Positions 17,661 through 47,149 of a DNA stretch of 64,000 nucleotides are shown piece after piece. Position numbers and translations under genes: made by a program. Numbering within the stretch: position 1 is the first letter of the stretch; every line of letters starts with the position of its first letter. The notes beneath the pieces are model-generated. The model was not told the origin of the DNA. It saw only the letters and a list, made by a program, of their open reading frames with translations, and made no database searches. Location: NCBI RefSeq assembly GCF_002894645.1, contig NZ_NCQY01000030.1:557968-621967 (forward strand), read 5' to 3'. The DNA is from Salinibacter altiplanensis (GTDB taxonomy: Bacteria > Bacteroidota > Rhodothermia > Rhodothermales > Salinibacteraceae).

Positions 17661-18238
17661 GGTAACTCCGCACACGCGGAGATAGACCTCCCTGCACTCG
17701 CTCCCAGTCCTCGCTGCTTTCGGTAACTCCGCACACGCGGAGATAGACCGAGATTATGGACACAAACCAGTCCGTTGACCAAGGTAACTCCGCACACGCG
17801 GAGATAGACCCCGTTCCAGATGAAGCCCTCGAAAGCCCGAGATGGTAACTCCGCACACGCGGAGATAGACCCAACACACACACACGGGAGGCAACCCCCC
17901 ATGAGGTAACTCCGCACACGCGGAGATAGACCTCGACTGGCAAAGCCTCGGCAACGCCTCGGGGCGGTAACTCCGCACACGCGGAGATAGACCCCCTTTC
18001 CGTCGGCGACCTTCCGCGCGGCTTTTGGGTAACTCCGCACACGCGGAGATAGACCTTAAGGATCTTATCGAGCAGTCCGGAAAGAAACGGTAACTCCGCA
18101 CACGCGGAGATAGACCCGCGAGGGTAAAGGAGGCTGGCCCGGTCTCTCCGGTAACTCCGCACACGCGGAGATAGACCCTCAAGGCCAGTGGCGCCACGCT
18201 ACGCGGGTTCGGTAACTCCGCACACGCGGAGATCGATC
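17661..18238 (+). CRISPR. CRISPR array 1, type I-E, 10 repeats
   Basis: Ten 28-base repeats start at 17661, 17722, 17783, 17844, 17905, 17966, 18028, 18089, 18150 and 18211. The repeat opens GGTAACTCCGC, has the loop ACAC, closes the 6-bp stem with GCGGAG and ends ATAGACC. Spacers are 33 bases, except the sixth, which is 34. The last repeat loses its final bases (GATCGATC instead of GATAGACC), which with the AT-rich leader on the left sets the polarity as left to right. Repeat length, stem and neighbouring genes all fit subtype I-E. Confidence 0.97.
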
Positions 18239-19551: not shown

Positions 19552-22278
19552 ATGGACGGTTCTCCCGCCCCCGACCAGTTCTGGGCCAAGCTCAAGTACA
19601 AGAACGACGACCGCTCGACCGGGAAAATTGTCGAGTGGCATCCCCTTCTCGCCCACTCGGCGGACGTGGCGGCGGTAACGGAGGCGCTCTTGCAGCGGAC
19701 GATCCTGCGCGATCGGCTCGCGGCGCTGATCGGGTGGGACGAACTGTCCGACGTGCACGTGGCGCGGTTGTCGGCCCTGGCGGCGTTGCACGACGCGGGG
19801 AAGGTGAACCATGGGTTCCAGAATCGAGGACACTCGACACGACCGCAGGCTGGACACGTGCGGCCGATCGTTGACGTTCTGAGCACTCCGTCACTACAGG
19901 AGAAGCTCCTTCTTCCACTCGGATTGGGAGAAATGATGAGCTGGTTTGACGGCCGGAAGGATCCGGATCATTTTCTTCGGGCCACCTGGGCTCATCACGG
20001 CGAACCAGTGGACAGCACACGCGATCAGGATACCTCTCTCTGGGAGCCGGACTCCAGAAATCCACTCGACGAGCTCAAACGTCTTGGAGAGCACGTTCGG
20101 AGTTGGTTCCCAGACGCCTTCCGCGAGGGCACGCCGTTCCCGGAAGGCCAATCTGACTTCCAGCACGCCTTCAACGGCGTCCTCACGCTCGCGGATTGGA
20201 TTGGATCGGGCTTTCCCTATGCCGATGATCGAGAGCAGAATTTTTTGAAACGTGCTCAAGAGATCGCCGAGGAGCGACTGACAAAGCAGGCGATGTTGGC
20301 CAAGTCGTACCAGGAATCGCTGGAGACATCCGTCGGTTTTTCAGGCATTCTCAAGAAGGAAGAGTGGACACCGCATCCGGTTCAAGAGATTGGGCTCTCA
20401 CATCCGGTGTACGAAAAGGGCGGGCTCACCGTGCTGGAGTCCGACACAGGCTCTGGGAAGACCGAAGCCGCTATCGCCCGGTTCTTTCGCCTGTACCAGG
20501 AGAAAACGGTCGATGGGATGTACTTCGCCGTCCCCACCCGAACGGCCGCCAAACAGCTCTACATGCGTGTGTACGAGACCGTCCAGCGGGTGTACGAGCG
20601 GCAGGACGCCGATCCGCCGCCCGTCGTTCAGGCGGTGCCAAGCTATTACAAAATCGACGGCGTCGAAGGAACGCCCGTTGCTCCGTTCACGGTGCGTTGG
20701 CACGACGAGGAAGAAGAAGACGAAGCCCGCGAACGACGATGGGCAGCCGAGGGACCCAAGCGGTATCTGGCAGGGGCCATCGTCGTTGGGACCATCGATC
20801 AGGTTCTGTTGTCGGCCCTGCAGGTTCGTCATGCCCACATGCGGGGCGCTGCGCTCCTGCGCCACTTCCTGGTCGTCGACGAAGTTCACGCCTCCGACGT
20901 GTACATGACACGCCTCCTTTCGGCGGTGCTCGACCATCACCTGGCTGCAGGTGGGCATGCGATGTTGATGTCGGCGACGCTCGGTACGGAGTCCCGCCTC
21001 CGATTGACGAAAAAAACCGTCCGGGACGACGACATTCCGCCCCCCGACGAGGCCACCCAAATCGGGTATCCGCTCGTCACGCATGTCAGCGCCGAACGGG
21101 ACGACCCGACACCGAAAGTCACAGAACCATCCGGCTACCGGAAAGATGTGTTGATGACGGCCGAGCGCAGGGCCGACGACCCCGAAGCAATTGCCCGCCG
21201 TGCCATCGACGCAGCACGAGAGGGAGCGCGCGTGCTCATCATTCGCAACTTGGTAGAGGATTGCCGGCGCGTTCAGGAGGCAATCGAGAATCAGTTGGGG
21301 GCGGAGGCGTCGGATCTGCTTCTTTCGATTGGGGACACACCGGCGCCCCATCACTCGCGCTACGCCGACGGCGATCGAAAACGGCTCGATGCGGCCATCG
21401 AGCAGGCATTTGGAGAGGAAGACGATGATGGAAATCCGATCCCAATTCAAGGCGCCATTGCCGTCGCCACGCAAACGGTGCAAATGTCCCTCGACATCTC
21501 GGCCTCGCTGATGATGACGGATCTCTGTCCCGTGGACGTGCTCCTGCAACGGATCGGACGCCTGCACCGACACGACCGCTCGCATCCATCTGGATTCGAA
21601 GACCCCGAATGCATTGTCTTGACTCCGGAGGAGCGCAATCTGAGTTCGGCCATCGTTCGGGGAGGCGAAAAGGACGGTCAGGGACTCAAAGGCGGTCACG
21701 GGCTGGGGACAGTGTATTCGGATCTCCGGGTGCTCGATGCGACGTGGACTCTCCTGGAAGATGAGGACCTGGAGACGTGGACGATTCCGGACGACAACCG
21801 GCGCCTGGTTGAGCGAGGGACGCACCCGCACGTCCTTCGCGATCTCGTGACGGAAAAAATGAAGAACGAGCCGGACGATGTCGCTGAGGCCTGGGACCAG
21901 CATCAGAACTGGGTGGTGGGCGAACGAACCGCCGACGCCGTGAGCGCGAAGCACGTCTTGCTCCAGCGCCACAAATCGTTCGGCCATCAGCAATTCGGGG
22001 AAGACCTGGAGAAGGTAAAGACGCGGCTTGGTCAGGACAACGTGCGCGTGGAATTTTCGGAACCAATGCCGAGCCCCCTCCCCCCCAACGAGGGACCGTC
22101 CATTTCTGCCCTCTCGATTCCCGAACACCTGCTCCGAGATCGCGGGGAGGAGACCGTTTCTCTCGAAGACCTGGAGGCCGACGACGTGCAGGAGACTGAT
22201 GAAGGGTTTTGCTTCATAGCTAACGAGAAGCGATTTCGATACGTTCATCTGGGGCTCTCGCGGATCGAGGGGAAGTAA
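19552..22278 (+). CDS. cas3: CRISPR-associated helicase-nuclease Cas3
   Basis: The 908-residue effector nuclease of the type I-E system, recruited by Cascade to unwind and shred target DNA. An N-terminal HD nuclease domain shows LLAHSADVA, ALHDAGKVNHGF (about residues 78-89) and WAHHGEPV (about 146). The helicase part has Walker A SDTGSGKTEAA (about 297), the box VVDEVHASD (about 440), MLMSATLGT, and motif VI QRIGRLHRHDR. Length is typical for a fused HD-helicase Cas3. It precedes the Cascade genes but is separated from them by a 273-base intergenic region and an extra gene, so it may be transcribed on its own. Confidence 0.96.
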   Translation: MDGSPAPDQFWAKLKYKNDDRSTGKIVEWHPLLAHSADVAAVTEALLQRTILRDRLAALIGWDELSDVHVARLSALAALHDAGKVNHGFQNRGHSTRPQAGHVRPIVDVLSTPSLQEKLLLPLGLGEMMSWFDGRKDPDHFLRATWAHHGEPVDSTRDQDTSLWEPDSRNPLDELKRLGEHVRSWFPDAFREGTPFPEGQSDFQHAFNGVLTLADWIGSGFPYADDREQNFLKRAQEIAEERLTKQAMLAKSYQESLETSVGFSGILKKEEWTPHPVQEIGLSHPVYEKGGLTVLESDTGSGKTEAAIARFFRLYQEKTVDGMYFAVPTRTAAKQLYMRVYETVQRVYERQDADPPPVVQAVPSYYKIDGVEGTPVAPFTVRWHDEEEEDEARERRWAAEGPKRYLAGAIVVGTIDQVLLSALQVRHAHMRGAALLRHFLVVDEVHASDVYMTRLLSAVLDHHLAAGGHAMLMSATLGTESRLRLTKKTVRDDDIPPPDEATQIGYPLVTHVSAERDDPTPKVTEPSGYRKDVLMTAERRADDPEAIARRAIDAAREGARVLIIRNLVEDCRRVQEAIENQLGAEASDLLLSIGDTPAPHHSRYADGDRKRLDAAIEQAFGEEDDDGNPIPIQGAIAVATQTVQMSLDISASLMMTDLCPVDVLLQRIGRLHRHDRSHPSGFEDPECIVLTPEERNLSSAIVRGGEKDGQGLKGGHGLGTVYSDLRVLDATWTLLEDEDLETWTIPDDNRRLVERGTHPHVLRDLVTEKMKNEPDDVAEAWDQHQNWVVGERTADAVSAKHVLLQRHKSFGHQQFGEDLEKVKTRLGQDNVRVEFSEPMPSPLPPNEGPSISALSIPEHLLRDRGEETVSLEDLEADDVQETDEGFCFIANEKRFRYVHLGLSRIEGK

Positions 22279-22299: not shown

Positions 22300-22320
22300 T
22301 CTAGACTTACATCTACCCAA
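22300..22320 (-). promoter_or_regulatory. Predicted target site of the pseudo-crRNA
   Basis: Read on the - strand, this 21-base site agrees with the pseudo-spacer at 22382-22402 at 15 of 21 positions: 1-6, 8, 9, 12, 13, 15 and 18-21. The three bases on its PAM side (22321-22323) read AAA. It lies immediately upstream of the TTGCAA box at 22322 that probably forms the -35 element of the pseudo-array promoter, so Cascade bound here would block transcription. The match is counted directly from the sequence; the function is inferred. Confidence 0.5.
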
Positions 22321-22321
22321 T

Positions 22322-22351
22322 TTGCAATTATTCGGGCAGAGTCATTTATTA
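22322..22351 (+). promoter_or_regulatory. Candidate promoter of the pseudo-CRISPR RNA and cas8e operon
   Basis: TTGCAA at 22322-22327 and TTATTA at 22346-22351, 18 bases apart, lie in the most AT-rich part of the intergenic region. Start of transcription would fall at about the first base of the first pseudo-repeat (22354). The block AATTTGCAATTATTC recurs almost exactly in the leader of CRISPR array 1, which supports a shared promoter element. Confidence 0.5.
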
Positions 22352-22353
22352 GA

Positions 22354-22430
22354 ACTGTCGCCGAGTAATCGGCGATGGACCTTGGGTTGAAATAGGGTTA
22401 GAAGTGACTCCGCGTCAGTGGAGACTTTCA
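22354..22430 (+). ncRNA. Degenerate two-repeat mini-CRISPR, CreR/CreA-like guide RNA
   Basis: Two pseudo-repeats (22354-22381 and 22403-22430) flank a 21-base pseudo-spacer. Each agrees with the 28-base repeat of array 1 at 16 of 28 positions. The first keeps the 6-bp stem and 4-base loop through two compensatory changes (T-A to G-C and C-G to A-T) and retains the crRNA handle as GATGGACC. The second keeps the 5' arm CTCCGC exactly and the 3' arm as GTGGAG, but has lost the handle. This is the known shape of Cas-regulating pseudo-crRNAs, which Cas6 processes and Cascade uses for repression rather than cleavage. Transcription has not been shown. Confidence 0.6.
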
Positions 22431-22442
22431 TAAAGAAAGCCC

Positions 22443-22495
22443 CGCTGACCGCGAGATCAGCGAGGCCAAACCACCGAGTTGCAGCTCGGAGGCCT
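22443..22495 (+). other. Two consecutive hairpins after the pseudo-array
   Basis: CGCTGA (22443-22448) pairs with TCAGCG (22457-22462). Just after it, AGGCC (22463-22467) pairs with GGCCT (22491-22495) around an inner stem CCGAG/CTCGG (22474-22478 and 22485-22489). No T-tract follows, so they look like a structured 5' leader of the downstream gene rather than a terminator. They may also be further decayed repeats, since both 3' arms are followed by AGGCC. Confidence 0.35.
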
Positions 22496-22551
22496 TGCTG
22501 GTACGTCCTCTATTCGCTAGAACGTTGAACATACAGCATTCAATTGTAGCT

Positions 22552-22995
22552 ATGATTACGCAAACTGACAAGATCCTCGGGGCCGTCTTACGGCGATCTA
22601 TACGAGATGGTGTTATCGAGGAGGTATCTGAAGCCGACGACCATCCGGGACACTTTATCGTCGACGAGGAAAAGCATGTCCTGGTGAAGCACGCTCAGAG
22701 TTCAAGCTCAACTTGGCGATTTACCTTCTCCCCGAAGGTCGTTGAGACGCTCGTCTCATTACAAAACGCGGTCGGTCTTTTCGGGGCAACATATCTCTGG
22801 CTGGTGTGCGACAACGACGCCGTCTGCGAACTCGGAGTCGATGAATGGGGCTCTCTTCTCAACATGGAGGCTCCAACGTCCCAACAGACGATCCAGATTT
22901 CGCGTCCTCCTGGTCATTCATTCTCCGTAGCAGGGACCGATGGAATGCTTCCGCACAGCGTTCCAGTCAGCCGCTTCCCTTCCCTGGACACGTAG
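22552..22995 (+). CDS. Unknown protein encoded between cas3 and cas8e
   Basis: A 147-residue protein that I do not recognise. The N-terminal half is charged (KILGAVLRRSIRDGVIEEV, then an acidic, His-containing segment). The middle has a strongly strand-like block, GATYLWLVCDNDAVCELGV, followed by DEWGSLLN. No transmembrane segment or known nuclease motif is evident. The ATG at 22552 was preferred to an upstream in-frame CTG/TTG region because it starts the coherent sequence. It lies 37 bases before cas8e in the same direction, and so is probably the first gene of the Cascade operon. A regulator or accessory factor of the CRISPR system is possible. Confidence 0.65.
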   Translation: MITQTDKILGAVLRRSIRDGVIEEVSEADDHPGHFIVDEEKHVLVKHAQSSSSTWRFTFSPKVVETLVSLQNAVGLFGATYLWLVCDNDAVCELGVDEWGSLLNMEAPTSQQTIQISRPPGHSFSVAGTDGMLPHSVPVSRFPSLDT

Positions 22996-23032
22996 TGTAT
23001 TTTTCGCTCTCGCTCATCTCACATAAGTGTTC

Positions 23033-24562
23033 ATGTCTGATCTGTCTTTGTTGAACGATGAGCTGTTTCGAGTGCAGACTCGCGACCACATGGCGCAGAT
23101 GACCCTTCCTGCGATTCTGCGTGCTCTCAGTCGGGACGTCATTCTTAGCTTCAATGCCCTCCAGCCCCATCAGGAGCAGGCCTGGTACTCGTTTCTGGTG
23201 CAGTTGGCCGCGATGACTGTGGTCCGTGCGAACGACGGGACCACTCCAGACACCGCCGAGGAATGGCGCGGCGCCCTGCTCAGCCTGACCGACGGCAACG
23301 AGAATGCGTGGCGTCTCGTCGTTCCGGATGTGGAAAAAGAGCCTGCGTTCCTCCAGCCCCCAGTGCCGGAGGGATCCCTTGATGACGCCAACTTCAAAAG
23401 CGACATCCCGTCGCCGTCCAATCTCGACGTACTGGTGACGTCGAAGAACCACGACGTAAAACAGCGGCGCATTTCATACCCGGAGCCGGCGCACTGGATC
23501 TACGCCCTCGTCACGCTGCAGACGATGGAGGGCTACATGGGCCGTGGGAATTATGGAATTGTGAGAATCAATTCCGGCTACGGTTCGAGGCCATTTCTAG
23601 GCTTATCTCCAGAGCTTTCGTTTGGGGCTCGCTTCTGCCGCGATCTGGACGTTCTCATTAACCAGCACGATGACCTCACTACGCTCTACGATGTCGAGGA
23701 CGGGCACACGCTGATCTGGACGGTGCCGTGGAATGGTGAAAAGTCGAGCGCACTCCCGCTCCGCAAGTGCGACCCGTATTTCATTGAGGCCTGTCGTCGA
23801 ATCCGATTCATAGAAGAAGGAGGAGACATCGTCTGCTGGCGTGCCACCTCGAAAGGCCAGCGCATTGATGCCCCCTCCTCGCTCAACGGGCGCACGGAAG
23901 ATCCCTGGACCCCGATCGACTCCGAGGGGGAAAAATCGCTGACCCTCAGCGGAGAGGGGTTCACCTACGAAAAGCTACAGGAAATTGTCTTCGGGAAATA
24001 CGTCCGACCGGCCTCCCTGGAGAGACAAAACGGGGATGACGGTGCGATGTATCTGACTGCCCGGGCAATGGTGCGCGGTCAGGGAAAAACAGAAGGACTT
24101 CACCATCGCATCATCCCCATTCCAGAAAAGGTGTATGGCTTGTTTCCGGACAAAGAGGCGATGGATGAGCTTGCCGACCGGGCGAAGCAGCGCGTGAAAT
24201 TGGTCTCGAAGGTTGAGTCCAACGTGCTTCGTCCCGCCGTAGCCGCTCTTCTCAGCGCCGGAAAAGACGAGGACGTGGACTGGGAGCAGGTCCAGCCCTG
24301 GATCGATGCCTTCGACGACGCGGTGGACGATCACTTCTTCGACTACCTGTGGGCGTCGGTTGAAGCCGAGGACGAAGCGGAGGCCGAGGACAAATGGGAA
24401 GCATTCCTCCGAGACGAGGCGGAACAGCAGTTCGACGAGGCCCAGGACAGCGTTCCCCTCCCCGACATCCGCCGCTGGGAAGCACTCAGCGCCGCCCGGT
24501 CCGTCTTCCACTCCCGCATCGACGACGTTTTGGGATCAACTGCCAACGCCCCCGCTGCTTGA
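23033..24562 (+). CDS. cas8e: Cascade large subunit Cas8e (Cse1/CasA)
   Basis: Large subunit of the type I-E Cascade complex, which reads the PAM and recruits Cas3. The 509-residue protein shows the family pattern: an N-terminal L-x-x-A-L-S-R-D segment, RANDGTTPDTAEEWR, the core YPEPAHWIYALVTLQTMEGY followed by GRGNYGIVRINSGYGSRPF, and a helical acidic C-terminal domain of about 150 residues. The ATG at 23033 is preferred to a GTG two codons earlier. It is followed after 22 bases by cse2. Confidence 0.93.
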   Translation: MSDLSLLNDELFRVQTRDHMAQMTLPAILRALSRDVILSFNALQPHQEQAWYSFLVQLAAMTVVRANDGTTPDTAEEWRGALLSLTDGNENAWRLVVPDVEKEPAFLQPPVPEGSLDDANFKSDIPSPSNLDVLVTSKNHDVKQRRISYPEPAHWIYALVTLQTMEGYMGRGNYGIVRINSGYGSRPFLGLSPELSFGARFCRDLDVLINQHDDLTTLYDVEDGHTLIWTVPWNGEKSSALPLRKCDPYFIEACRRIRFIEEGGDIVCWRATSKGQRIDAPSSLNGRTEDPWTPIDSEGEKSLTLSGEGFTYEKLQEIVFGKYVRPASLERQNGDDGAMYLTARAMVRGQGKTEGLHHRIIPIPEKVYGLFPDKEAMDELADRAKQRVKLVSKVESNVLRPAVAALLSAGKDEDVDWEQVQPWIDAFDDAVDDHFFDYLWASVEAEDEAEAEDKWEAFLRDEAEQQFDEAQDSVPLPDIRRWEALSAARSVFHSRIDDVLGSTANAPAA

Positions 24563-24584
24563 ATCAGATCAGAGGTGACCACTC

Positions 24585-25211
24585 ATGAATGACCAACCCG
24601 CATTCGATCGTTCCGGATCGCCCCCCGACGATTCGCAAGATTCTTCCGAGCCACCTCCCTCCGAACGGATTGCAATCACCGACGACGTGGCGGACGACGA
24701 TCGTCCGAAGCAATTTGCCAGTTCCATCGGCAAGATCGCGAAGATGATGGCGACGGAGGGGGCCCTCGGCACGGGCACGCTTGCCGAGCTTCGGCGCATT
24801 TCCCCCGAAAAACCGTTCACCCCCGCCCTCTGGAATTTGCTGCTGGACCTCGACGAGGCAGAGCCCTGGGGCGGACTGGATCGCGACGTGTACGAGCGGC
24901 GCATGGCCACGCTGGCGATGGGAATGGCCATTTGTGCCGGCCTCCACAACTACCGGGAGCCGCTCGGACGGGCTCTCGCCGAAGCAGGCTGGTCGAAGCT
25001 CCGGTTCGTGCGCCTTATGGAGGCCCGCGGCGAAACGCTTGTGAAGCACGTCCGCCGCATGGCACAGTACCTCGCCAGCAAATCGCAGGCGGCCAACTGG
25101 GTGGATGTAGGGTGGCTCCTCATCGGCCAGGATTGGACCACCGCGGAAGAAACCCGCCTGCGCATCTCTCGCAGCTACTACGGCACCCTGCACGCGCAGG
25201 AGCAGGAGTAG
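24585..25211 (+). CDS. cse2: Cascade small subunit Cse2 (CasB)
   Basis: Small helical subunit that lines the belly of the type I-E Cascade and stabilises the R-loop. The 208-residue protein is nearly all helical, with the family segments TGTLAELRRISPEKPF, PALWNLLLDL and the C-terminal RLRISRSYYG. The first 30 residues are acidic, Pro/Ser-rich and likely disordered, longer than in most relatives. It lies between cas8e and cas7e in the canonical order. Confidence 0.9.
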   Translation: MNDQPAFDRSGSPPDDSQDSSEPPPSERIAITDDVADDDRPKQFASSIGKIAKMMATEGALGTGTLAELRRISPEKPFTPALWNLLLDLDEAEPWGGLDRDVYERRMATLAMGMAICAGLHNYREPLGRALAEAGWSKLRFVRLMEARGETLVKHVRRMAQYLASKSQAANWVDVGWLLIGQDWTTAEETRLRISRSYYGTLHAQEQE

Positions 25212-25266
25212 TCCCCTCTCGGATACACGTGCGTTTGAGTCTCATCCATTCACCCTCCAGCTGACC

Positions 25267-26550
25267 ATGTTTTTGCAATTTCACACCCTCACCTCTTATC
25301 CCGGAACGCTTCTGAATCGCGACGATGCCGGGTTTGCGAAGCGATTGCCCTTTGGCGGGGCTACCCGGACACGCGTCTCGTCGCAGTGCCTCAAGTACCA
25401 TTGGCGCAACTTCGACGGCGAGCACGCACTCTACGGCATCGACGACGTGGAGGAATCGCTCCGCTCGCGGGAAACCTTTCGCCGCAGAGTTGCCCAACCG
25501 CTGGTGAACGACGGACATCCAGCGCCGCTTGTCCGTGCCGCAACGGTGTCCCTGAAAGAGCTAATCGTGTCCGGTGGCACCGCGAACAAGACGACCGTCA
25601 AAGACGCCATCACGGCGGAGTCAGACGATGAAATCAGCGATGTACTGGACACCAATCAGGTCACCATCTTCGGTGCCCCGGAGATGCAGTACCTGCGATC
25701 GCTCGCGGGGGAGGTCATCGAGAGCGTCAGGAATGACTTTCCGGTCTTCTGGGAGAGCGATGGCGTGCCTGACAGTGACGCCGTCGGCGACGTGGCCGAT
25801 GCGATTCGAAAGTCCGACCTGATCAAGAGTCGCAAGGTCAAGAAGAACCTGAAGGGGCTGGATCTAGCGTCCGGCCTCGATGCTGCCCTCTTCGGTCGCA
25901 TGGCCACGAGCGACGTGCTGGCCCGGGGCGATGCTGCCATTCACGTGGCTCACGCCTTTACGACGCACAAGGAGGAAAGCGAGAGCGACTACTTTTCTGC
26001 TGTCGACGAGTTGCGCCGGGATCAGCCCGAGGAAAGTGGCGAAATGGGCGCCGGGCACATTAACAGCCAGGAACTTACGAGCGGGCTCTTCTACAGCTAC
26101 GTCGTGATCGACGTGCCCCTCCTCGTCTCGAACCTCGAAGGATGCGAGCGAGACGACTGGTCCGACGCCGACCGGACGCTGGCCTCGGACGTCGTGCACC
26201 GCTTCGTCCACCTCATGACGCGCGTTTCCCCGGGGGCGAAGCTGGGATCGACGGCGCCGTACGCCTACGCCCAGTGCCTGATCGCAGAAGCGGGCACAGC
26301 CCAGCCCCGCACAATGGCCAATGCCTTCCAGGAGCCTGTTTCGAAGGAGGGCGACGTGCTCAAAAACAGCTACGACGCCCTCGCATCGTACGTTGACGAC
26401 CTCAACGGCATGTACGGACGCACCACAGAGGCAAAGCTTTCCGCAACGAACGATTCGAGTGCCCTGCAAGACACACTTGGCCTCGATGACACGACGCCAG
26501 TGCCCAAGATTGCCGAGTGGGCCGCCGATACGGTCACCGAAGCTGGATGA
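25267..26550 (+). CDS. cas7e: Cascade backbone subunit Cas7e (Cse4/CasC)
   Basis: Forms the six-copy backbone that coats the crRNA spacer. The 427-residue sequence opens with FLQFHTLTSYPGTLLNRDDAGFAKRLPFGG then TRTRVSSQCLKYHWR, the signature of this family. GHINSQELTSGLFYSYVVID and the SPGAKLGSTAPYAYA segment mark the later half. It is somewhat longer than the E. coli protein because of acidic insertions (for example SDDEISDVLDTNQV and SDYFSAVDELRRDQPEE), which fits a halophile. It is followed after 48 bases by cas5e. Confidence 0.95.
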   Translation: MFLQFHTLTSYPGTLLNRDDAGFAKRLPFGGATRTRVSSQCLKYHWRNFDGEHALYGIDDVEESLRSRETFRRRVAQPLVNDGHPAPLVRAATVSLKELIVSGGTANKTTVKDAITAESDDEISDVLDTNQVTIFGAPEMQYLRSLAGEVIESVRNDFPVFWESDGVPDSDAVGDVADAIRKSDLIKSRKVKKNLKGLDLASGLDAALFGRMATSDVLARGDAAIHVAHAFTTHKEESESDYFSAVDELRRDQPEESGEMGAGHINSQELTSGLFYSYVVIDVPLLVSNLEGCERDDWSDADRTLASDVVHRFVHLMTRVSPGAKLGSTAPYAYAQCLIAEAGTAQPRTMANAFQEPVSKEGDVLKNSYDALASYVDDLNGMYGRTTEAKLSATNDSSALQDTLGLDDTTPVPKIAEWAADTVTEAG

Positions 26551-26598
26551 CCCCGATTCCTTGATTGCACGTGCCCCACAACGAATGAGAAGCCCGAA

Positions 26599-27363
26599 AT
26601 GAACATTCTTCTTTTGCGCTTTGACGCGCCGCTAATGAGTTTCGGGGCCCCGATCGTAGACAATCGGGGAGAGATTCAGCCCTACCCGGCCCTGTCCATG
26701 ATGACGGGCCTCTTGGGGAACGCCCTCGGCTTCGATCACGCCGAGACGGAGGCCCTCGAACGGCTCCAGCACCGCCTTCTGTATGCCGTCCGTCAGGACC
26801 GGGCGGGCGAGCAGATTCAAGACTATCAGACCGTCGACTTGTCGAAGCCCTACATGGACGATGCCCGGGCCTGGACCACACGGGGCGAGCTCGAAACACG
26901 CAAAGGGGGCTCCGCCAGCAGCGGCACGCACATTCGCCAGCGCGACTACTGGGCCGACGCCGCATACACGGTCGCACTCACACTCAACCCTGCTGGACAA
27001 ACCCCCACACTCGACGACATCGCGGGAGCAGTTCGGAAGCCCGAGCGGCCTCTTTTTATCGGTCGAAAACCATGTCTTCCGGCTTCCTTCCTCTTTCTAA
27101 AGCAGACGGAAGCGCCTCGCCTCGTCGATGCCCTGTCGAATTTGGACAAAGCACCGCTTGCCCCAGAGCCCGACGACCGTTCATCACTCCGGGCCTGGTG
27201 GCCAATTCATCCGGACGACGATAAGCCGGCCGAATCGGACCCGATCCAGGAAAATATGCGCAAGCCCGTCACTGACCAGCGCGATTGGGAAAATCAAATC
27301 CACGCTGGGCAACGCTGGATTGCATATGGTCCTCTTTCCATCTCTGAATCCTCAACCTCATGA
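26599..27363 (+). CDS. cas5e: Cascade subunit Cas5e (CasD)
   Basis: Caps the 5' handle of the crRNA in Cascade. The 254-residue protein starts MNILLLRFDAPLMSFG and contains the family motif PYPALSMMTGLLGNALGF. It also has the conserved QDYQTVDLSKPY segment and the strand RQRDYWADAAYTVALTL, and ends near GRKPCLPASFLFL with a C-terminal extension. Its stop overlaps the start of cas6e by four bases (ATGA), showing translational coupling. Confidence 0.94.
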   Translation: MNILLLRFDAPLMSFGAPIVDNRGEIQPYPALSMMTGLLGNALGFDHAETEALERLQHRLLYAVRQDRAGEQIQDYQTVDLSKPYMDDARAWTTRGELETRKGGSASSGTHIRQRDYWADAAYTVALTLNPAGQTPTLDDIAGAVRKPERPLFIGRKPCLPASFLFLKQTEAPRLVDALSNLDKAPLAPEPDDRSSLRAWWPIHPDDDKPAESDPIQENMRKPVTDQRDWENQIHAGQRWIAYGPLSISESSTS

Positions 27364-28172
27364 TTGACACCCAGACCGACACCTTCCACATGGTCCAGCT
27401 CTACCTGGACCCCCGCCGCCTCGTCCAGCTGGGGAAGATGCAGGGCCTGCCCCTTGCCCGCACGGACACGAATTACTTGGTGCACTGTGCATTGGGCGAG
27501 CTCTTCGGCGACGATGCCCCCAAGCCCTTTTTTGTTGACGACGATCCACGCACCGTGGAAGAAACGGCTGAATACCACGACGATCGTCACGTCCGTGTGC
27601 TCGGCTACGCCGACGCGGACGACGACATGCTGCAGCAGGAGGCGAAGCTCAGCCCGAATCCCACGATCGGCAATCTGTACGATAAGGACCGTCTTGATTC
27701 CCACGAAATGCTGTCGTCGTTTCGGAAGGGACGCCGCCTTCAGTTCGAACTCCGCGCCTGCCCGGTCATCCGCAAGGCCTCCGCGGGCGAGGGCGTGAAC
27801 CAGAACGGCGAGACGCGCACCTGGGACGAGGGCGACGAGCTCGACGCCTTCCTCGCGAAGGCCTGGTCGCAGCCGGAGAAGGACTTGAACCGCGAGAAGG
27901 TATATCGCAAATGGCTGAGTGATCAGTTCGATCACCGGGGCGGAGCAACGTCCGATCCTGACCAGATTGCCATGACCCGCTTCTCCATCGAGCGCATGAC
28001 GCGCCGCACGCACGGGGCCGACCGCTCGGTCGAGACCATCAAGCGCCCCGACGTGACCCTCACCGGCACGCTCCAGGTCACCGACTCGGACGCCTTCGTC
28101 AACCTCCTCCGCTCCGGCCTCGGGCGGCACAAGAGCTTCGGGTACGGGATGCTGAAGGTGCGCCGCGCCTGA
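27360..28172 (+). CDS. cas6e: crRNA endoribonuclease Cas6e (Cse3/CasE)
   Basis: Cleaves the precursor crRNA at the base of the repeat hairpin and stays bound to the 3' stem. The 270-residue protein has a ferredoxin-like start (HMVQLYLDPRRLVQL), a candidate catalytic histidine in YLVHCALGELFG, and the C-terminal glycine-rich loop SGLGRHKSFGYGMLKVR typical of the family. It must accept at least the two repeat types of the two arrays, which differ in stem sequence but not in shape, and possibly the pseudo-repeats upstream. Confidence 0.94.
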   Translation: MIDTQTDTFHMVQLYLDPRRLVQLGKMQGLPLARTDTNYLVHCALGELFGDDAPKPFFVDDDPRTVEETAEYHDDRHVRVLGYADADDDMLQQEAKLSPNPTIGNLYDKDRLDSHEMLSSFRKGRRLQFELRACPVIRKASAGEGVNQNGETRTWDEGDELDAFLAKAWSQPEKDLNREKVYRKWLSDQFDHRGGATSDPDQIAMTRFSIERMTRRTHGADRSVETIKRPDVTLTGTLQVTDSDAFVNLLRSGLGRHKSFGYGMLKVRRA

Positions 28173-29972: not shown

Positions 29973-30849
29973 GGTAGCCCCGCACTCGCGGGGATAGACC
30001 TACGTGGCTAGACAATGCGCGGCGCGTCGGGGCGGTAGCCCCGCACTCGCGGGGATAGACCCGTCGCCGCGAGGCAGGCTCCGACGAGGACAGCGGTAGC
30101 CCCGCACTCGCGGGGATAGACCTGTGGGCGACACTCAGCGCCCGTGGCCCCAATCGGTAGCCCCGCACTCGCGGGGATAGACCGTGCGCCGGAAGCTCGT
30201 TGGGAGCCTGAACAACGGTAGCCCCGCACTCGCGGGGATAGACCCTCTCAGGCGCCCTCGCCGCCGCCCGTAGTGAGGGTAGCCCCGCACTCGCGGGGAT
30301 AGACCCTCCCGTGCGGTCATTTGTCCTTGCTGGACCAGGGTAGCCCCGCACTCGCGGGGATAGACCCATTGCTTACATCGCCCCTGCTACCGTATCCCCG
30401 GTAGCCCCGCACTCGCGGGGATAGACCCTGGCAGAAGAGGCCGGGGCACAGGAGGGCATCGGTAGCCCCGCACTCGCGGGGATAGACCCAGATCCTCGAC
30501 GCGCTTCATTACTGATGCCAAGGTAGCCCCGCACTCGCGGGGATAGACCCCGGCAGCGCGGGCGCGTCGCTCGTGATCCACGGGTAGCCCCGCACTCGCG
30601 GGGATAGACCCGGCGGGCGTGACTGGCTCAACGGCGGGCGTGAGGTAGCCCCGCACTCGCGGGGATAGACCGTGTGTACGTGAGGAGTCATGGGGGAGAC
30701 GTAGGGTAGCCCCGCACTCGCGGGGATAGACCTGTGGGCAAACGGAGACGTTCGTTTCTATTCCGGGTAGCCCCGCACTCGCGGGGATAGACCTTTCGAG
30801 TCAAGTCCTGAGTTGTCCCAGATAAAGGTAGCCCCGCACTCGCGGGGGT
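29973..30849 (+). CRISPR. CRISPR array 2, type I-E, 15 repeats
   Basis: Fifteen 28-base repeats at a strict 61-base period from 29973 to the last at 30827, with fourteen 33-base spacers. The repeat opens GGTAGCCCCGC, has loop ACTC, closes with GCGGGG and ends ATAGACC. Compared with array 1, the stem pair T-A is C-G, a compensatory change. The last repeat decays after GCGGGG, so the array reads from the cas2 side. No spacer looks duplicated. Confidence 0.97.
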
Positions 30850-30988
30850 ATTGATGCGAGCACGCCCATTCTCGGGGCGGGTGCGGGCACCGGCATTTCC
30901 GCCAAGTTTGCCGAGCGAGGGGGCATCGTCCGGGACGGCCGACGACGGCAGCGAGCACAGACGGTGTGTCTACGCTCCGGCGTCCGGA

Positions 30989-46775: not shown

Positions 46776-47142
46776 GGGGATGACACGGCTTCGACGTGTA
46801 GTAAACGTGCAGCGGACTGACCTGCCGAGCAGCCTGATTCGCTCTGTAAAACCTGTCAGGAATTGTAACTGCGGACGATTATTCGTACGCGATGGCGGCG
46901 TAACAGCCCCCATCTGTCTCGCGTCGCTCCTGGCCCTTGGGGAGCGTGAGACATCGACAAAAAGGGTGTAGCCGCCGCGTTCTCCGACTGCGGATGCGCC
47001 GGTGAAACTTAACCAGTCTCAGCGCCGCCCTGGCCTCGTGGATGGGCAGACGGCCGGCGTGAATCGCCAATGCGTCCACTATGCAGGTAGAGGTTTGCCT
47101 GTGCGGCTACACGGACCCGGGTTCGACTCCCGGCATCTCCAC
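46776..47142 (+). ncRNA. ssrA: Transfer-messenger RNA (ssrA)
   Basis: Rescues stalled ribosomes and tags their products for proteolysis. The 5' end GGGGATGACACGGCTTCGAC pairs with the 3' end GCATCTCCAC, and the tRNA-like T arm reads GGGTTCGACTCCCGG near the 3' end. The tag reading frame GCG GAC GAT TAT TCG TAC GCG ATG GCG GCG TAA gives ADDYSYAMAA. The terminal CCA is not encoded. A strong terminator follows at once, and prophage late genes begin just beyond. Confidence 0.97.
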
Positions 47143-47149
47143 TTTGGAT

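Follow-up and report, generated by a model that had tools for sequence, protein, structure and literature searches.

The question raised by this locus is what two strongly diverged CRISPR repeats are doing between cas3 and the Cascade genes of a complete type I-E system. The window analyzed, 64,000 nucleotides of Salinibacter altiplanensis DNA, carries the full type I-E gene set on its plus strand (cas3, cas8e, cse2, cas7, cas5e, cas6e, cas1e and cas2e), with cas3 at 19552-22278, the Cascade genes cas8e-cse2-cas7-cas5-cas6e, presumed to be the regulated operon, at 23027-28172, and cas1-cas2 downstream of these, up to 29791. Two plus-strand arrays flank the system, array 1 at 17661-18237 (repeat GGTAACTCCGCACACGCGGAGATAGACC) and array 2 at 29973-30853 (repeat GGTAGCCCCGCACTCGCGGGGATAGACC), and their repeats differ from each other. 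A preliminary description had placed a mini-array between cas3 and the Cascade operon, and that position holds, except that the element does not adjoin cas8e; a reading frame of 147 amino acids, here termed orfX (22552-22995, plus strand), intervenes. The host had also been thought halophilic, which is plausible because one homologous orfX locus comes from the metagenome-assembled Bacteroidetes bin GSL.Bin8, in which "GSL" presumably denotes Great Salt Lake. A scan against Rfam returned a tmRNA gene at 46776-47144 (RF00023), and nothing else matched.

Recomputation confirmed that both pseudo-repeats, psiR1 (22354-22381) and psiR2 (22403-22430) on the plus strand, are identical to the array 1 repeat at 16 of 28 positions. 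Repeat identity by itself was rejected as evidence, since the 64-kb window contains, arrays excluded, 64 segments of 28 nt that reach at least 16/28. Such identity is common by chance; the architecture and the relatives are decisive. As first described, psiR1 retains a 6-bp stem with a 4-nt loop, CGCCGA-GTAA-TCGGCG (22359-22374), followed by the crRNA 5' handle ATGGACC (22375-22381), two compensatory changes having turned CTCCGC/GCGGAG into CGCCGA/TCGGCG, and psiR2 retains a stem-loop, CTCCGC-GTCA-GTGGAG (22408-22423), with its 3' tail, and hence the handle, gone. A search of both strands of the window for a 6-bp stem with an ATxxxCC handle, followed 14-39 nt on by another 6-bp stem, gave a single occurrence outside the arrays. 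Two compensatory changes in a single sequence, taken alone, did not imply the selection that had further been claimed.

At the DNA level no similarity was found between the intergenic region and relatives, because the spacer and its flanks turn over, and protein-anchored retrieval was needed. The host genus has 12 other genomes in the collection. Searches of the order anchored on orfX and on cas8e yielded 16 close loci having cas8e identity of at least 52%. Seven of these have an intact orfX (G000, which is this genome, and G008, G010, G013, G016, G028 and G045), and a pseudo-array is present in all seven, its handle 158-191 nt before the orfX start, the mini-array thus being shared at the equivalent place by six related genomes. 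None was found in the available stretches of the nine loci without intact orfX (G005, G006, G012, G015, G021, G024, G042, G052 and G077), among which the G005 contig ends near the site and the G012 and G024 loci are incomplete. The chance of a split of 7/7 versus 0/9 is about 1 in 11,000 (1/C(16,7)) if shared ancestry is ignored. G005 has a truncated orfX and G001 a frameshifted one, and no array adjoins either. Between G000 and G008, DNA identity is 82-85% at the cas3 end and the cas8e start and about 49-50% from the cas3 stop through orfX; because the flanks are this much more alike than the module, the guide and orfX moved together and were swapped as a unit between the two.

Paired stems in the orthologous intergenic regions, which had been proposed as a check on the element, are present wherever orfX is intact. 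For psiR1, 36 of 36 stem cells are paired with G013 left out, and permutation of the 3' arms among genomes gives full pairing in 0.14% of cases (fraction 0.0014); for psiR2 the figures are 42 of 42 and 0.24% (0.0024). Stem changes on both sides number 17, 10 of them in psiR1, counting G013, and the other 7 in psiR2. The exception is G013, whose psiR1 forms no proper hairpin. With the G013 stem excepted, the seven loci keep the 5' handle in psiR1 and the hairpin in the second repeat. The psiR1 handle of G028, ATAGTCC, is that of G028's own CRISPR repeat, which has ATAGTCC in place of ATAGACC.

The surroundings of these loci vary in other respects. The cas3-cas8e intergenic region is a hotspot of toxin-antitoxin-like (TA-like) genes (G010, G045, also G006, G012 and G024), with an RHH and PIN domain pair in G010 (L058:9384-10142), a pair that looks similar by eye in G006 and partly so in G012, and DUF4160 and DUF2442 in G045 (L056). 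G006 (L067) and G015 (L068) have tandem type I-E effector operons ahead of a single cas6-cas1-cas2 set, their cas8e proteins being about 54-57% and 34-36% identical to that of G000. In the cas5-cas6 gap of G001 (L061:17011-17093) there is a two-repeat mini-array with a 33-nt spacer; its best matches within the locus include none beside an AAN, so it was discarded as a guide and taken as an array remnant, and the cas5-cas6 element of G004 was likewise set aside as a degenerate true array.

The length of the pseudo-spacers follows that of the true arrays. Array spacers of these loci measure 33 nt in 461 of 467 cases, and in a normal array the handle and the second stem are 38 nt apart, the 33-nt spacer plus 5 nt of repeat. 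The corresponding distance in the pseudo-arrays is 38 nt for five loci and 26 nt for the other two (G000 and G045), that is, a spacer of 33 or of 33 minus 12. Here the psi-spacer is 21 nt (22382-22402, plus strand; T followed by TGGGTTGAAATAGGGTTAGA). Twelve nucleotides correspond to two Cas7 footprints of 6 nt each. Altered-length Cascade in 6-nt steps has been made for type I-F, and, by the titles cited in the same paper, for type I-E too; the shortened type I-F complexes kept binding and degraded DNA less (PMC7296934). By analogy, a shortened complex that binds and degrades less would suit a repressor.

What the guide would recognize became apparent when each psi-spacer was matched against both strands of the 240 nt preceding its psiR1. 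With no PAM imposed, the best match lies on the minus strand beside AAT or AAC in all seven loci (in G045 another site ties). In this genome the protospacer is a 20-nt minus-strand sequence at 22300-22319 (TGGGTaGAtgTAaGtcTAGA), matched at 14 of 20 positions and at 7 of 8 in the seed, with the PAM AAT at 22320-22322; the sole seed mismatch is at the flipped position 6. From genome to genome the spacers are entirely different and so are the targets, yet each spacer matches upstream of itself, and when spacers were swapped among genomes with the PAM required, the diagonal was the row and column maximum in 7/7. With the PAM (AAN) required, shuffled spacers reached the observed score in 1.4% of cases for G008, 0.4% for G045 and 0 of 1000 for each of the others; without it, the match is not significant on its own in G008 (p 0.16) or G045 (p 0.25). 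Five targets lie 54-61 nt upstream of the handle, that of G028 31 nt and that of G013 92 nt. No second psi-spacer target was consistently found in the seven loci downstream or at the minus-strand promoter described below, and the genome itself holds no other site within 3 mismatches of 22 nt.

The pattern of mismatches is itself informative. Over the seven loci, matches number 34/35 at positions 1-5, 3/7 at position 6, 29/35 at positions 7-11 and 4/7 at position 12, and decay after about position 15; positions 1-11 other than 6 are matched in 63 of 70 cases, against 7 of 14 at positions 6 and 12 (Fisher p 0.0014). In type I-E Cascade, bases 6 and 12 are flipped out, and the fewer matches there agree with such a complex for that reason. 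The weighted score ignored positions 6 and 12, a possible source of bias, and unweighted re-scoring picks identical target sites, with one tie in G000. Of 467 array spacers, 393 have C or T directly behind the 28-nt repeat and 10 have A; since the first nucleotide after a type I-E repeat can be PAM-derived (PMC8482600), this possible AAY preference agrees with the seven targets. Type I-E PAMs elsewhere are mostly of the AAN type (PMC8482600). Phage matches of the array 2 spacers provided no usable match for deriving a PAM.

In most loci the targets fall in what reads as the mini-array's own promoter. By sequence inspection this is predicted on the plus strand at 22322-22350 (TTGCAA at 22322-22327, 17 nt, TTTATT at 22345-22350), with a transcript start expected near 22357, at psiR1, and the PAM overlaps its -33-like box. 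It was called by analogy with the clearer promoter of G045; aligned on the PAM, the boxes, again by inspection, read TTGACA-17-TACGTTTTG in G045, TTGACA-17-TTACCC in G010, TTGATT in G016, TTGGAA in G008 and TTGCAA-17-TTTATT in G000, and in most loci the PAM is on such a box or at most 2 bases from it. In most loci no more than tens of bases separate orfX from cas8e, the gap in G010 being about 100 nt, and these short gaps argue for orfX and cas8e being in one operon; from the gap lengths it is inferred that the mini-array promoter would drive both. Two hairpins lie between the mini-array and orfX, and read-through into orfX and cas8e is assumed. Loci without the array have palindromes before cas8e, CGGACA-5-TGTCCG in G005 (L065) and G012 (L074), TGGACA-5-TGTCCA in G015 (L068) and GTGACA-6-TGTCAC in G042, G052 and G077 (L076-L078), at which protein repressors probably act in place of the guide.

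Hairpins between psiR2 and orfX occur in all seven loci. In this genome they are the GC-rich HP3 (22438-22467) and HP4 (22474-22489; CCGAGTTGCAGCTCGG). HP3 has a T-tract on the minus strand only, which makes it terminator-like for a minus-strand RNA (the tract is weak in G008 and G045); as a plus-strand terminator it was rejected because that strand has no T-tract. A candidate sigma-70-like promoter, TTGTCA-17-TACAAT, overlies the orfX start on the minus strand at 22543-22571. Its scores in the seven loci are 10, 7, 10, 9, 8, 8 and 8 of 12 (G008 being weak), and their sum of 60, against 47.7 +/- 2.3 for shuffled sequences, was equalled in none of 2000 shuffles, although the -35 similarity may partly stem from conserved orfX codons. 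A convergent minus-strand RNA of about 100 nt, ending at HP3 and antisense to the orfX leader (22430-22571), is thus a candidate.

Together these findings favor, with a probability of about 0.8, the reading that the mini-array is a CreR-like guide gene acting as autorepressor of its own promoter, and so of orfX and Cascade. In this scheme, whose steps of transcription, processing, loading and repression are predictions, the promoter at about 22322-22350 would transcribe the mini-array and Cas6e would cut the RNA within psiR1 and psiR2, psiR1 giving the 5' handle and psiR2 the 3' hairpin of the guide RNA. The guide, with its psi-spacer 12 nt short, would load into a type I-E Cascade having two Cas7 units fewer and direct it to the minus strand at 22300-22322, where seed-only pairing would allow binding without productive Cas3 recruitment. 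Cascade would then cover the -33 region and block its own promoter, which may also read into orfX and the Cascade operon, and this negative feedback would ease once crRNAs or anti-CRISPRs tie up Cascade. Against the reading are the hairpin defect and distant target (-92) of G013, the weaker matches of G008 and G045, the two hairpins ahead of orfX, and the failure of phage matches to yield a PAM.

Simple autoregulation of cas genes does not account for the strict tie to orfX. This tie leaves room for a guard function like that of CrePA, in which the guide mainly represses orfX, a toxic or abortive-infection protein freed by anti-CRISPRs, and control of cas genes is a side effect or absent. As the main role of the guide this is possible but on the unlikely side. 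In its favor are the joint occurrence of intact orfX and pseudo-array in all seven loci and the lack of both in the nine related type I-E loci, the damage to orfX in G005 and G001 where no array adjoins, the swapping of the module as a unit between G000 and G008, and the TA-like genes in the equivalent intergenic region of other genomes. On the other hand, orfX showed neither a KilA-N domain nor any other known toxin match in family searches, homologues without a pseudo-array exist (G014, G032 and G033), and orfX is so closely coupled to cas8e that both would be co-regulated.

The remaining explanations fare far worse. Control of creT, a gene for an RNA toxin that would lie upstream of psiR1, would draw on the two-repeat architecture shared with creA (PMC8501985), but is very unlikely because in six of the seven loci the PAM is only about 13-43 nt from the psiR1 stem, and this interval, which is where the mini-array has its own promoter, has no room for creT. 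A functionless remnant of a decaying array is slightly less credible still; degenerate arrays do occur near these cas genes, as between cas5 and cas6 in G001 and G004, but decay does not fit a spacer of 33 or 33 minus 12, stems kept by compensation, a handle kept in psiR1 only and AAY targets that differ from genome to genome yet match the local spacer each time, and the G001 remnant lacks a comparable AAN target among its best matches. Least probable is that the guide is aimed at a foreign element or at a host gene located elsewhere and matches upstream by coincidence. In five loci the psi-spacers are otherwise like normal spacers, but all seven self-match beside a PAM on one strand, the distance from the handle being -54 to -61 in five; the spacer swap contradicts coincidence, and no alternative site exists in the genome at the threshold given above.

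As to orfX itself, comparison with Pfam, NCBIfam, PADLOC and PDB sequences gave no convincing match, a single family member matching PADLOC PDC-M01B at E 0.0014. An AlphaFold model built from two sequences (mean pLDDT 74) resembles Hjc/PvuII-type PD-(D/E)XK folds, the best match (Z 8.5, rmsd 3.3, 110 residues) being close to the range in which chance resemblance is frequent, and a PD-(D/E)XK/Hjc-like fold is proposed with moderate confidence. The alignment contains no conserved D-(D/E)xK catalytic residues, and for want of this triad orfX is not claimed as a nuclease. Of the homologues without a pseudo-array, that of G014 (L062:7903-9490) lies divergently beside an integron integrase (NCBIfam TIGR02249, E 8e-135), placed as if it were the first gene cassette, and those of G032 and G033 adjoin genes that read by eye like nitrite/siroheme genes. 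The G032 stretch, in which no cas gene turned up, has one stem-handle-stem match on its minus strand, and this was taken as chance. The protein could be either a Cascade-guarded toxin, like that of CrePA, or an accessory protein.

The preliminary description had assigned the element to the CreA/CreR-type pseudo-crRNA genes of type I-E. That assignment is supported, and is strengthened because there are six relatives, a spacer of 33 or 33 minus 12 nt, AAY-PAM self-targets in 7/7 and covarying stems. The target, the 12-nt shortening and the partner orfX had no place in that description. The element would not be the first type I-E member, since CreR (Liu et al. 2023 Cell Host Microbe) is reported in review accounts for types I-B, I-E and V-A (PMC13131331, PMC12737573). 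As CreR is portrayed in these reviews, both are degenerate mini-CRISPRs beside a cas operon with limited complementarity to a cas promoter; unlike it, here orfX always lies between guide and Cascade genes, the target lies at the guide's own putative promoter and the psi-spacer is 12 nt shorter in two loci. Judged against the same accounts, the kind is already known (type I-E CreR, PMC13131331), and the present loci are a variant by their fixed orfX partner, exchangeable module and 12-nt shortening. CrePA (Shu et al. 2025 Nat Chem Biol) likewise pairs a crRNA-like guide with a co-selected protein gene, the promoter of which the guide may repress, but CreP, as reviewed, typically has a KilA-N domain (PMC12737573), for which orfX gave no match. 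With CreTA (PMC8501985, PMC9458426) the element shares two divergent pseudo-repeats, a handle better kept in psiR1 than in psiR2, and repeat degeneration; it differs in that target and guide are too close together for a creT RNA gene in 6/7 loci. From the type I-E arrays of its own locus it retains the 6-bp stem, 4-nt loop, ATxGACC handle, 33-nt spacer rule and AAY PAM, and it departs from them in consisting of two strongly diverged repeats only, in targeting itself and in its shortened spacer.

A more elaborate arrangement is conceivable, though rather doubtful: a three-part exchangeable switch in which a self-targeting guide (33 or 33 minus 12), an orfX released upon disabling of Cascade and the convergent RNA of about 100 nt would set the level of Cascade and punish carriers of anti-CRISPRs. 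Seven co-evolving pairs of guide and target within one bacterial order constitute a natural set, and they indicate that type I-E Cascade may act on its own operon as a transcription factor, the PAM overlapping or flanking the -33 box, and that spacer length would change in steps of Cas7 units. The guide model also makes sense of the guide-less loci, with their palindromic operators at the equivalent promoter. Finally, orfX, a protein kept intact only together with the guide, offers a lead to the possible guarding of CRISPR systems against anti-CRISPRs.
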